A DNA stretch of 64,000 nucleotides from Yarrowia lipolytica. Its lineage: Eukaryota > Ascomycota > Dipodascomycetes > Dipodascales. The position numbers and the translations under genes are program-made. How positions within the stretch are numbered: the first letter of the stretch is position 1; the number at the start of each line of letters is the position of its first letter. The DNA lies in the NCBI RefSeq assembly GCF_001761485.1, contig NC_090774.1:992001-1056000 (forward strand), written 5' to 3'. Below are positions 50,296 to 55,892 of this stretch, piece after piece. The notes beneath the pieces were generated by a model. The model did not search any database. It saw nothing but the letters and a program-made list of their open reading frames with translations, and was not told where the DNA came from.

Positions 50296-52368
50296 TCAGG
50301 ACTTCCGCAAGACAGGAGACTTGAGGTTGAACAGCCACGAAGAGCTCTTGTTGCGTCTAATAGGGTACTCCTCAAACGGATCAGTGGCTGGAGAAGGAAT
50401 GTGGTTGCGCATGAACAAGGCCGGCTTGGGAATAGTGATTTGAGGAGGAAGAACTCGCGGGACGTTGATGTCACGTGAAGTGTCAACCATATCGAATTTC
50501 AACTCACGTGACGGCTCAAAGTTGATTGTTCGGTCACGAGATTTGATCAAAACGTAGACCAAAGCAATCAGACACATGAACAGCCAAATGCCTAGACAAG
50601 CTAGAGCAATGTACAGCTCGGTGAACAGCAACTTCTCCACCGTCTTTATGATTCTCGCAATTCCGTCGCTGACGTAATCTGCCTTCTCTGAAGCCTCCTG
50701 CTCTATGTCTTGATGGCTCATGAGTTCCTTGTCGATTCGAGGCAATGTCACGTGAGCATTATCGCTGACCCAGCCCATTCCATCGGCAACCTTTTGTAGT
50801 TTCAGTGTAACTAGGCATTTTGTGACGCCCTGAACGGCCCCATGGAGCGGAGTGTCTTTGAACACTGAGTCAATGCCATTGTTCATAGTATCAATGAAGG
50901 TGGACAGAGTAGTGTTGACTGTGGATGTGGAGTCTACGACCCAACCAAGCAAGTTCTTGTTTATGTGAGTCTCTTGGGAGTTGAGAAACAGGTTTGTGTC
51001 GTTCTTCCAAGTCTCAATTTCCCGCACAACTGTCTCAGTAATGTCAGCACCTACCTCTGAAGTGAGCACAGTGAGGCTTTGTAGACCACTCTTAAGGATA
51101 GACAAAAGACCGAGCTGTAGGAGAAACGCTAGAATACCAAATAATCCAACCAGAAGAAGAGTCAGCATGTAGGGATACAAAATGTATGCCCAGTACCACT
51201 GACTGAGGTTGCGTTGGTACAGTTTCTTTCCCCAGGCGAGTTTCTGTTTGACCATGGTGACGTACTTGTGCTGGGCCTGGAATAGAACAGTGTGGAAAGC
51301 GTGTCTCTTCTCCTGTTTCACGTCCACAGTGCTTTGTTCAACCCACAACTCCTCGTGGTACCTCCACAGTCTCCATTCAGACCATGCCACAGGCACTATC
51401 ATGATTAGTGCTAGAATCAAAAGTAGGGAAATAATTACCTTGAGGCCGGTGTTCAAACCAGAGTTGAGCTTTGCATACACTTCAGGGATGTTTGCGTCTT
51501 TGCAGAATTGAGCTGACTTGAGAGCAGGCACCTTGAGCGAGTCAGACACATTCAATGGCGTTGCAAGAGTCTCGTTCATGCTCTTTGAAATGGTCTGGAA
51601 TGGTTTTCGGATAAGAGACTCGATTTCGTTCTTGACTGTCTCGAAATCAGGCACCTTGTCCTTCACAGAGTCGAGTTTTTCGTTGACAGACGCAGGAATT
51701 GAGACATTCTTGAGCCCATCGAGCTGGAGCTTGACGAAATCAATCTGACCAGTGTACTCCTCGGCTTGCTTGCCCGTGATGAGATTTCCCAGGTCCACAA
51801 AGGCGTTGGTGGCGGTGTTGAGACCGTCAGCAAGGCCATTGAGACCCTTTTCAATCTCAGGAACCACTGTGCTGATGGTGTCATTGACAAATGAGATTAC
51901 GTGCTTCGAGGTGTCGACAGCCAGAGAAACAGCACCTTGAACCACAAGTGTGATAAGACAGGTGTAGGTGGAAATGAGCATATTGACGGCGAATATCAAC
52001 AGCTCCTGAACTCCAGTAATGATCAAAAGAACCATCTTAATCAAACCGGAGACAAACTTCTGGATAGCCGTGGCAATCACGTGATTCATCCCCGTGGCCG
52101 TGTAGTGAGGAATGGACATCATTTTGCTGACTGAGCGTTCAAGGGCCGAACAAGACCGTTCGGAGTTGGATTCGGCGCCGTCAAGTTGTCCGGACAACGA
52201 CATCTTGAACATCCACAGCTTGATGCTCACCAGCAGCAGACCGATAGTCCATTTGTTGAGCCAGGTCTGACTGAGACGGGCCTTGAGAAGTGGTATGGAC
52301 GAGTGCTCCGTGGGACTGTTTTGCGTGTTCCACCAGAGTTTTATTTGTGAAGCGAGCGACATTGCCAT
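50296..52368 (-). CDS. PRM1: PRM1, plasma membrane fusion protein of mating
   Basis: A 690-residue multispanning protein. Hydrophobic segments lie at about 39-55, 104-150 ([20 protein letters not shown] and [14 protein letters not shown]), 303-322 ([19 protein letters not shown]), 393-425 and 580-610. Two extracellular loops carry several N-x-S/T sites. [14 protein letters not shown], before the third hydrophobic stretch, is the conserved Cys block of the family. Prm1 is induced by pheromone and promotes fusion of the two plasma membranes during yeast mating. The length is close to the S. cerevisiae protein (661). A TATATAA element lies on the minus strand near 52421. CACGTG boxes in the last exon part are read in frame as SRD/SRE, and the tail is Pro-rich and basic. 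A candidate pheromone gene lies 2.6 kb away. Confidence 0.9.
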
Positions 52369-53504
52369 AGTGTGTTTGAGGGTAAATACAGAGTGGTTCC
52401 GTGGGGTCGTAGTGTTATATATGACTGCCTCATGGATGGTCGTGGGGCTGTTTCATGTTGGAAAGAAAAGGGTATCAGGTAAAACTGAGAAGTGCTTGGA
52501 TCAAGAAGCGAAAACTCGGAGTATTGGGTATTTCGACGCTTTAAAATCATCTGAGATACTTTTGGAGCGATCTGAGCATTTTGTAGGCCCCTAGAGAACA
52601 CTGATGTGGACAGTGATATCTGCCTCATCGTTTAAGTTGCGTCATGTGAAGTGTGGTGTGAAGCTGAGGCTGTATACGAAAAACGAGGTCCAACAACACA
52701 GCAGGAATACGGCGGGCTGAGAAATCACGTGATCCCTCTTAACAACATTCCCCTCGCCCCACCCCCCCAAAAAAAAGTTGTCTTATGTAAGCATCCAAGC
52801 GAGCGACAGTCGAAATATGAACATTTCTTCTGAGTTGTTTTTTTTTTCTTCTGTCAGTGTCTTGGTTGCTTTAACAACCCTCAAGTACTTTATTCACCCT
52901 TCTAGTTTATCTTGAGCTTTTTTTTCACACACTGAGAAACATATTTCAGTCGATCTAGCCCTATGAAAAAGCGTCAAGTCATTCCTGGGTGCTTCGACTC
53001 CAGCAGTATCAATCTGTGATTCGGGTTACTACAGTTAATTAGAGCGAGCAAAAACCGGTCAAACTGATGCCAGGAATACGAACCCAGCAGCGTATATATC
53101 TACGGATACTCATACGGTGACTAACTGTCTTGTACGTACAGTACTGTACTATATATATGACCTTCCACCTCTCACTCTCATTCTCCCAGTGAACGTTGGG
53201 GTTAGGGTTGCATATTTGGAACATAAAAGCCTGTCTTCTATTAGTGGAGAACAAGAGGGGTCTACAGAAGGGTCAGCAATAGTTCAATCGCATAAGTTTG
53301 GACTTTCAGTGCGACAATAATGTTCTAAACACTGAGCCTGTAACTTCATCGCGGTGTTTGCATACAAAAACACCGAGTATAGACCTCCTCCATTTTCACC
53401 ACTCCACCTCAAATAAAGTTTGATTTTTCGCTCCCAAATTTCACTCTGATTCAAGGCTTGAGATTCCACTCTACAACCACACAAGTCTCCACTTTCTTTA
53501 CAAC
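52369..53504. other. Divergent promoter, PRM1 and PET123
   Basis: 1.1 kb without an ORF worth keeping. It contains a CACGTGAT box at about 52725, T-rich tracts near 52840 and 52920, and the palindrome GTACAGTACTGTAC (53136-53149) followed at once by TATATATA. Confidence 0.6.
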
Positions 53505-54497
53505 ATGAGCAGCAGAGTGTCTGGAGTTTTGCCCAAGCCGCGATCCATCGTGGTTCCGTACGCGTCTCGGCGAGGCTTTCCTGTGGGCCAGGGCTATGCT
53601 GACGAGAAGATGGTGCCTCGGGGCTCTCATCGATTCCCCAAGAAGAAGACCGTTCCCACTGAAGAGCAGCTGATTGCCACTCGAAACCCCCCTCGAACCT
53701 CCGCCAAGCATGCCACTCCCCGGTCCGAGATCCACAAGTGGCATTTGAAGATGGCAGATCTGCGTAAGCAGTATTTGGCTGACTCGCTGGTGTCTGCTGA
53801 GCGAGCTGACAAGGCCAAGTACCACTACCACAAGCGGTACCTTGCTGCCGCCGAGAAGGTCAAGGAGGATGCTCGAAACGCCGGTCTGACCGAGGCCGAG
53901 CTTCTGACTCTGCCCACAATTTCCGGTCTTCTTACCAACTCGCAGCTCAAGCGACAGACTGAGGACGAGTATGAACAGAAGCGTCTGGAGCGGCAGTACA
54001 ACGACCAGCTGCAACAGCTCAAGGATGAGGAGGAGCGAGCTCGAGTGACCGTCCAGCTGATTGACCAGGCCGACGACTTCATTGTGACCGAGGAGCAGCT
54101 GATTGCTGGCGTGGAGAAGGCCTTTGTCAACGGCTCTTCTTCCGGCAGAAACCCTGTGGGCGGCTGGTCCATCACCTCCTTCAAGGAGGACTCCATCATG
54201 GGCGTGGGCCGAAACTCGGCCGGCCTCGAGAAACTGGTTTCTCTGGCCAGCGAGTCCGAGGAGTCCAAGCTGACCGAGATTGGAGACGCCATTGCTCTGG
54301 AGCTTACCGGCGTCACCAACAACGGCAAGCCCGGTCTGGGCCGAATCGCCGAGATCCTCCGAGGAGACAATGTGCTGGAGCGAGCCGAGAAGCTGCGACT
54401 TGATCAGACCAAGGCCGGCAAGGCCCAGATCAAGAAGGACATGGGAGAGGCCGAGGATCTGGCCGAGATCCGACAGGCTCTCAAGGATATGGAATAA
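53505..54497 (+). CDS. PET123: PET123/mS26, mitochondrial small-subunit ribosomal protein
   Basis: A 330-residue basic protein matching the fungal Pet123 (mS26) family: a basic N-terminus (SRVSGVLPKPRSIVVPYAS) that doubles as import signal, the conserved SEIHKWHLKMADLRKQYLADS block, and a long charged helix (YEQKRLERQYNDQLQQLKDEEERARV). Pet123 sits on the body of the mitochondrial 37S subunit near the mRNA exit side and is needed for mitochondrial translation. The C-terminal half (ELTGVTNNGKPGLGRIAEIL and QALKDME) is less conserved. Codon bias is strong (CGA, GAG, CTG), as expected for a well-expressed gene. A long minus-strand frame over it is antisense. Confidence 0.82.
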   Translation: MSSRVSGVLPKPRSIVVPYASRRGFPVGQGYADEKMVPRGSHRFPKKKTVPTEEQLIATRNPPRTSAKHATPRSEIHKWHLKMADLRKQYLADSLVSAERADKAKYHYHKRYLAAAEKVKEDARNAGLTEAELLTLPTISGLLTNSQLKRQTEDEYEQKRLERQYNDQLQQLKDEEERARVTVQLIDQADDFIVTEEQLIAGVEKAFVNGSSSGRNPVGGWSITSFKEDSIMGVGRNSAGLEKLVSLASESEESKLTEIGDAIALELTGVTNNGKPGLGRIAEILRGDNVLERAEKLRLDQTKAGKAQIKKDMGEAEDLAEIRQALKDME

Positions 54498-54994
54498 TGT
54501 ATATAGCAACCGAGCCCGGCATGAGAATGAGTGACTGGGCAAAACAACTGTCTGAGAGAAGTAACTCGCAGAGCAAAGTGAATAAAATTACTGATATGAC
54601 AAACGCTAGTGTGGGTGGTGTTCTGGATGTCTTGGTGACGCAGAACACAGTGGGTTTGAGAACATTCTTACTACACTGTGACTATGGACATGTTGATCAT
54701 ACACGACTGCCAGAGGTGAGTCTGTTGACTCTGAACAGAATAGAGACTCTTTCCACATGGCAACGAAGATTTCATCTACATCTGTCGACGGTAATATTAA
54801 TACAGCAGTATGGACAGACCATGAATAACACTTACATTGCTATGCATATCAGTGTTCATTCAGTGATATTCCGGTACTGTACTGTATAGTGTCATCTAGG
54901 CAAACTGGTAGACTACGATCACTCTCATATTGTAGTAATAAATCAATCCATTAACATGTCCTGCATGTGAAGATGAATTTCCACTCGACTCTGG
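54498..54994. other. Intergenic, convergent 3' ends
   Basis: Between PET123 and the small CaaX gene. No gene seen. A TACTGTACTGTATAG motif lies near 54872-54890. Confidence 0.55.
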
Positions 54995-55108
54995 TTAAGC
55001 AATAACACAAGAGGAGGGTTGGAAAGTTCGGTAGCCTCCAACGATGGTCACGTTGGAGTTGACTCGGTAGGAGTCGGTGCCGTAGTCTCGAGGGATAGCC
55101 TTGCTCAT
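54995..55108 (-). CDS. Candidate a-factor (lipopeptide mating pheromone) precursor
   Basis: A 37-residue ORF, too short for usual gene calling. It ends C34-V-I-A, a CaaX box with the same four residues that end the S. cerevisiae a-factor precursors MFA1 and MFA2 (36 and 38 residues). Just before it is VGGYRTFQPSSC, with aromatic residues and a Pro as in a-factor (YIIKGVFWDPAC). The N-terminal part (MSKAIPRDYGTDSYRVNSN) would be removed by proteolysis. By analogy the Cys would be farnesylated, VIA cleaved by Rce1/Ste24, the end carboxymethylated by Ste14, and the peptide exported by a Ste6-type pump. Codons are strongly biased (AAC, GTC, CGA, TCC), the leader is CA-rich, and a TATATAT box lies 70 bases upstream. 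It could instead be another small prenylated protein. Confidence 0.75.
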   Translation of the reverse strand: MSKAIPRDYGTDSYRVNSNVTIVGGYRTFQPSSCVIA

Positions 55109-55176
55109 TGTAGTAGTGTGGTAGTTGTAGTTGTAGTATCTGTTTGATGGAGCTCAACAGCGGGTCCCGGTGGGCC

Positions 55177-55183
55177 ATATATA
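55177..55183 (-). promoter_or_regulatory. TATA box of the candidate pheromone gene
   Basis: ATATATA in GGCCATATATACTGG, about 70 bases upstream of the ATG at 55108 on the minus strand. Confidence 0.65.
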
Positions 55184-55205: not shown

Positions 55206-55232
55206 GACCTGGATGTGATATCAATCCAGGTC
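55206..55232. promoter_or_regulatory. Perfect 9-base inverted repeat upstream of the pheromone TATA box
   Basis: GACCTGGAT, a 9-base spacer GTGATATCA, then ATCCAGGTC. The arms are perfectly complementary and the centre holds GATATC. It lies about 23 bases upstream of the TATA box, the usual place for a yeast activator or repressor site. Dimeric binding is inferred; no known site is recognised. Confidence 0.5.
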
Positions 55233-55892
55233 AATCAATAAGCAAATCTTTCAAGGCACATTCAATAATGGTCCATCGCATCTCATTGTCACTTCTCGTT
55301 TCGGTGGGTTGATATCTGCATGCATGCAGGGGCTTTATTGACCTGTCCTAAAGAGGAAAGACGAAAGAGGACAATTCAATGGGTTTTCATTTCAAAGATC
55401 GATCTTGAACCTTTACGTGTGCGCTATTGAGCACTCTGAATGTCCTTTTCGGTTCTGGTTTGTCCTCGTCATCTCATTGTTGAAGCGATTTGATATGCAC
55501 ACCCTGTTCAGGATGCGCATATGAATAATATTCAGTTTTTCGATTCCGATATCCAAACGGGATCACTTGTTAAAAAAGATAATATCAGCCTGGAATTAAC
55601 GAAAGAAGAAGGGAACAATTGTCCTTAATCACCAGTTCATGGTGGATGGTTGTCCTGCTCTGTTCCGGTACCTGTTCCTGTTCTTGTACCCTTATAAACA
55701 TAACTGCCCCTTCTACTAAGCCTCCTACGGCCACTACATTTCCATACCTCTATTCATTAACTAAATATCATGTTATCCTCTTGAGGGCGAAATATCCAAA
55801 TGCAGGGTTATATTGCACTAGCATCCCGTCTCAAGGTCTCGTCTCAAAGCCGCCGTAACAGCAACCGTTGGCTAGCCCACCGTCTACTCTGC
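55233..55892. other. Upstream region of the candidate pheromone gene
   Basis: No gene seen. GCATGCATGC lies near 55317-55328. It borders the VMA13 3' end. Confidence 0.5.

Follow-up and report, generated by a model that had tools for sequence, protein, structure and literature searches.

The a-factor genes MFA1 and MFA2 of S. cerevisiae encode precursors of 36-38 aa that end in CVIA, with more than one gene specifying a near-identical pheromone, and the Y. lipolytica gene described here shares this organization. It differs from MFA1/MFA2 in that the Y. lipolytica peptide shows little similarity outside the CaaX box and has a longer predicted mature part, and in that Y. lipolytica possesses four genes, one of which carries an intron-like insert.

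As for Y. lipolytica itself, Srikant et al. reportedly found in 2023 that a-mating-type cells fail to mate once the four related genes have all been deleted. A passage of an earlier article, which cites a 2019 thesis, already describes a farnesylated pheromone of this yeast as identified and validated (PMC7243462; Srikant, Gaudet and Murray 2020), and the same source reports very poor mating of ste6-delta MATA cells. Subsequent papers cite Srikant et al. for yeast pheromone genes found by successive computational filters (Curr Biol 2023/preprint).

The gene analysed here is probably already known. We equate it with the published, farnesylated pheromone by species and by copy number, the four related genes reported by Srikant et al. 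having their counterpart in the four intact copies found here. Three strings taken from the peptide gave no match in the literature searched. What may still be of use to specialists is an intron-like insert in one copy, two decayed copies and, above all, a candidate operator in the promoters.

The window gene and its precursor peptide

The window, i.e. the whole stretch of 64,000 nucleotides of Y. lipolytica DNA that was analysed, had been read in a first-pass annotation as containing a 37-codon frame that ends in CVIA, probably an a-factor gene. This frame, for which no strand had been given, was confirmed and lies on the minus strand (Table 1); the ATG is at 55108, the stop codon at 54995-54997 and the product is MSKAIPRDYGTDSYRVNSNVTIVGGYRTFQPSSCVIA. 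Other landmarks read from the bare letters, namely a Gly-Gly-Tyr and a Phe-x-Pro segment preceding the Cys, a CA-rich leader immediately upstream of the ATG and a TATA box, are likewise present. A 9-bp inverted repeat (GACCTGGAT / ATCCAGGTC, separated by a 9-nt centre) occupies positions 55206-55232 of the window, in the promoter of this copy, with the TATA box on one side and the composite element described below on the other.

Table 1. Positions of the window gene, its neighbouring features and the related copies in the genome
Feature	Position	Strand	Remarks
a-factor precursor gene E_win (C5 copy), 37 codons + stop	window 54995..55108	minus	intact; recognized from ORF, paralogues and selection
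CA-rich leader, directly 5' of the E_win ATG	window 55109..55150	minus	roughly the limit of upstream sequence alignable between copies
TATATA box at -75 of E_win	window 55178..55183	minus	promoter sequence
Composite element CCTCTTTAGG-ACAG-GTCAATAAA at -248	window 55334..55356	minus	candidate operator; Mcm1-like box + GTCAATA
PRM1 homologue (mating-cell fusion), 690 aa	window 50296..52368	minus	database matches
F_A	C6:2129785-2129898	plus	intact
F_B	C6:2134462-2134575	plus	intact
F_int	C6:1323543-1323706	minus	intact once the 50-nt insert is removed
C_ps	C3, about 3133215-3133326		decayed: no ATG at the start position, frame shifted
F_ps	C6, about 754420-754529		decayed: shifted frames

The CaaX end alone is weak evidence, because a Cys at position -4 is carried by 18 of the 569 small ATG-initiated frames (20-100 aa) of the window; three of these 569 fit a strict CaaX pattern and a single one ends in CVIA. 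When a 52-aa open frame was used as the query against a protein collection that includes Y. lipolytica proteins, from which short proteins are possibly excluded, no candidate was obtained. Reading of the raw sequence can thus recover a 37-codon pheromone gene that protein searches miss. Within the peptide, the likely mature part follows Asn17 and Asn19, and the copies found in the genome are too alike to mark where it starts.

According to the article cited above, the a-factors of Y. lipolytica and S. cerevisiae share no sequence similarity at all (PMC7243462). This stands in mild tension with the emphasis of the first-pass annotation on CVIA and Phe-x-Pro, the CaaX box being a general signal.

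Related copies and an intron-like insert

Combined DNA and protein searches of the same genome yielded at least six related loci, four of them intact and two decayed; the figure is a lower bound, only the best candidates having been scored by the search. Five loci, including the window copy, came from the DNA search, while the seven rows returned by the protein search correspond to six loci with the split copy F_int counted twice. F_A and F_B lie 4.7 kb apart. AAGTAC units are repeated in tandem over a short distance just downstream of F_int.

In F_int, the first 73 nt of the coding sequence are separated from the remainder by a 50-nt insert (C6:1323584-1323633) that reads GTGAGT...CTAACACAG (also given as GTGAGT...TACTAACACAG), and whose removal restores the same 37-residue protein. 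The insert is confined to this copy and is found neither in E_win, F_A and F_B nor in the two decayed loci. It resembles the consensus of Yarrowia introns; a pattern built from this consensus also matches four stretches of the window, a count that has no chance estimate attached and serves as an illustration only. On these features the insert is best described as intron-like, and it would presumably be removed by splicing.

Mating partners and CaaX-enzyme families

A PRM1 homologue had been proposed to lie 2.6 kb from the pheromone gene and is indeed found there, the gap extending from 52368 to 54995. The protein is 99 % identical to a conserved hypothetical protein of Y. lipolytica, and 'Plasma membrane fusion protein' is the name given to two of its nine matches, which come from Yarrowia sp. 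B02 and E02. Each of the two pheromone receptor families has one strong locus in the genome (STE3, E 2.7e-69; STE2, E 2.6e-59). The STE6 homologue is an ABC transporter encoded at C5:717885-721721. The best 120 of its 596 matches include a protein of Y. lipolytica with 100 % identity as well as the STE6 proteins of Saccharomyces and K. lactis with 31 % and 33 % identity, respectively, over 96-97 % of the length. By the matches of this protein and of the PRM1 homologue, the genome is that of Y. lipolytica. An identity of 31 % between the Ste6 proteins of Y. lipolytica and S. cerevisiae is also given in a passage of PMC7243462.

Families to which enzymes acting on CaaX proteins belong are represented as well: one genome match was obtained for PF16491 (M48 N-terminal), two for PF04140 (ICMT), one of them strong, and four for PF00432 (prenyltransferase), these last being matches at the level of the family. 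A genome search with MATalpha_HMGbox, in which no positive control responded, gave no match; eight HMG-box matches were recorded, none of them placed at MAT.

A composite promoter element shared with STE6

The promoters of all four a-factor genes and of the STE6 homologue contain the pattern CC-N6-GG-N4-GTCAATA with the same spacing. The word GGACANGTCAATA is common to the upstream regions of E_win (-240), F_A (-252) and F_B (-248), which together provide three of its five exact matches in the genome; allowing up to one mismatch, there are 96 matches compared to 86 in a backward control. In the case of GGACNNGTCAATAGA, the six exact matches comprise F_A, F_B, STE6 (at -101) and three sites elsewhere, and a single mismatch separates it from the sites of E_win and of F_int, the latter inverted at -170; with up to one mismatch, its 29 matches are equalled by 29 in the control. 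Since these counts are near or equal to the backward control, the one-mismatch matches are, as a set, background. The STE6 site was picked from 91 one-mismatch matches with the approximate position of STE6 in mind, a choice that was not blind. In the regions upstream of the two decayed loci, GGACNNGTCAATAGA is matched with three and four mismatches at best, which corresponds to the background for 1000-bp pieces.

A weight matrix was constructed from the four a-factor sites only and run on 400-bp promoters, the background consisting of 530 overlapping 400-bp pieces from 109,807 bases, mostly positions 1-50000 of the window. The STE6 promoter scored 26.8, a value reached by none of the 530 background pieces, and the element is clear at this gene. 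The score of the STE2 promoter, 9.5, was attained by 27 of the 530 pieces, and the element there is suggestive. The 400-bp promoters of STE3 (7.4, with 52 of the 530 pieces scoring as high) and PRM1 (2.3, with 277 as high) showed nothing beyond this background.

A looser composite pattern that includes STE2, fitted post hoc to six promoters, has 15 matches in the genome compared to three in the backward control, i.e., the six fitted promoters and nine others. All of these nine except C6:1711459 were checked for nearby ORFs, and four ORFs near four of the extra matches, at distances of 0.3 to 1.8 kb, were scanned with Pfam; they comprise a SurE family member, a D-2-hydroxyacid dehydrogenase, VID27 and one protein without a family, and no known a-specific gene is among them. 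Likewise, none of the remaining exact GGACNNGTCAATAGA matches (C1:1361565, C1:1582098 and C2:1666937) clearly precedes a mating gene. About 750 bp separate a strong composite match at C1:1582090-1582110 from the divergent start of a protein that is rich in Ser/Thr and looks secreted; it has broken or repeat-rich frames and no Pfam match, and might be of the cell-wall or agglutinin type.

The composite element is a candidate operator for a-specific genes, its two halves resembling an Mcm1 box and an adjacent HMG-type site. Mcm1 and the HMG protein of MATA would be the factors that bind it. We advance tentatively, as a possibility that falls just short of the probable, that the two proteins act through this operator to switch on STE6 and the four a-factor genes together, and perhaps STE2 as well, with an intron in F_int and none in the other three intact copies.

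The same element bears on the origin of the intronless copies. An explanation of these as retrocopies was considered; it is disfavoured because E_win, F_A and F_B, the three intact copies concerned, retain the distant promoter element at about -250, and they are probably not simple retrocopies. Where TATA boxes were found (E_win and F_B), the element lies upstream of them.

Selection on the peptide and identity of the gene

Alignment of the four intact coding sequences reveals 23 variable columns, 22 at third and one at second codon positions. The only residue that differs is residue 8, D in E_win and F_int and A in F_A and F_B. Pairwise dS ranges from 0.33 to 1.46 and dN from 0 to 0.018. With 74 % of random substitutions expected to change the amino acid sequence, the binomial P of so few replacements under neutrality is about 7e-11, a rough value as the copies have a common ancestry. 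In same-strand BLAST comparisons of the six surroundings, similarity is confined to the coding sequence and small segments next to it, apart from an overlap between two of the C6 stretches and two weak pieces concerning C_ps and F_ps; between E_win and F_A, for example, it begins about 43 nt upstream of the ATG and ends about 12 nt beyond the stop. The silent sites have thus diverged and the flanks barely align, which argues that the protein was held constant while most of its surroundings drifted. This is a multi-copy CaaX peptide under strong purifying selection.

These comparisons also decide between several readings of the gene. That E_win is a chance frame with a CaaX-like end gains some plausibility from the frequency with which small frames of the window carry a Cys at -4, but the paralogues refute it: four intact members exist whose differences are silent except at residue 8, and excision of the insert from F_int gives exactly the same protein, leaving this reading a practically negligible probability. 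The alternative that recent duplication or gene conversion keeps the copies alike, which would make their conservation uninformative, draws on the general knowledge that yeast gene families can be homogenized by conversion. However, conversion would keep silent sites alike as well, and their divergence contradicts it; nor does the likeness between the copies reflect a recent duplication, because it covers little beyond the coding sequence and the leader. We regard such an explanation as exceedingly improbable.

Judged by the CaaX box, which in itself says nothing of processing, export or sensing, the gene might instead encode a small peptide that is prenylated and sits in a membrane without being a pheromone, for instance an intracellular CaaX microprotein. 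Against this reading speak the near-invariance of a multi-copy family, the promoter element common to these genes and the STE6 homologue, and the validated farnesylated pheromone of Y. lipolytica described in the passage of PMC7243462; it appears very unlikely. The original a-factor reading, in comparison, draws support from the same family, the CaaX box and the shared element together with the presence of STE3 and STE6 homologues, and E_win is very probably an a-factor precursor gene, which Y. lipolytica possesses in four intact copies.

The path that we infer, from cell-type expression and its regulators through splicing to the individual processing steps and the cut site, would run as follows. 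Mcm1 together with a MAT factor of the HMG type would activate the four genes and STE6 in the mating type that corresponds to a of S. cerevisiae. The 37-residue precursor would be farnesylated at Cys34, VIA cleaved off and the Cys carboxyl-methylated. Proteases would remove the N-terminal part, perhaps after Asn19 to yield VTIVGGYRTFQPSSC, a start in which we have low confidence. Finally, Ste6 would export the lipopeptide, which partner cells would detect via Ste3.

Comparison with known regulatory systems

The composite element in the a-factor and STE6 promoters is possibly new, although it may be known. The literature searched on Mcm1 and a-specific genes makes no mention of it in the excerpts consulted. 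Mcm1-like motifs have been reported, in a passage of PMC2253631, at ribosomal genes of Y. lipolytica.

The arrangement resembles MATa2-Mcm1 control in that an Mcm1-like box adjoins a possible HMG-type site before the a-factor genes and STE6. The second half-site is GTCAATA (in reverse, TATTGAC), unlike the a2 site of C. albicans, which is of the CATTGT type. It comes closer to the site of MAT1-1-1 of P. chrysogenum, but this protein belongs to the alpha-like side, and the parallel is a loose one. MAT1-1-1 binds CTATTGAG in vitro (PMC10512297); CTATTGAC, the reverse of the second half here, differs from this site in the last base. A section heading of the same article gives the tom1 probe as bound by both MAT1-1-1 and MAT1-2-1 (PMC10512297).

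The candidate operator offers a direct test of the regulation of a-specific genes in a yeast that belongs to neither the S. cerevisiae nor the C. albicans lineage, and it bears on the question of an ancestral positive control by a2-Mcm1. If true, it would mean that such positive control operates in an early-branching lineage of budding yeasts, through a half-site unlike that of C. albicans.
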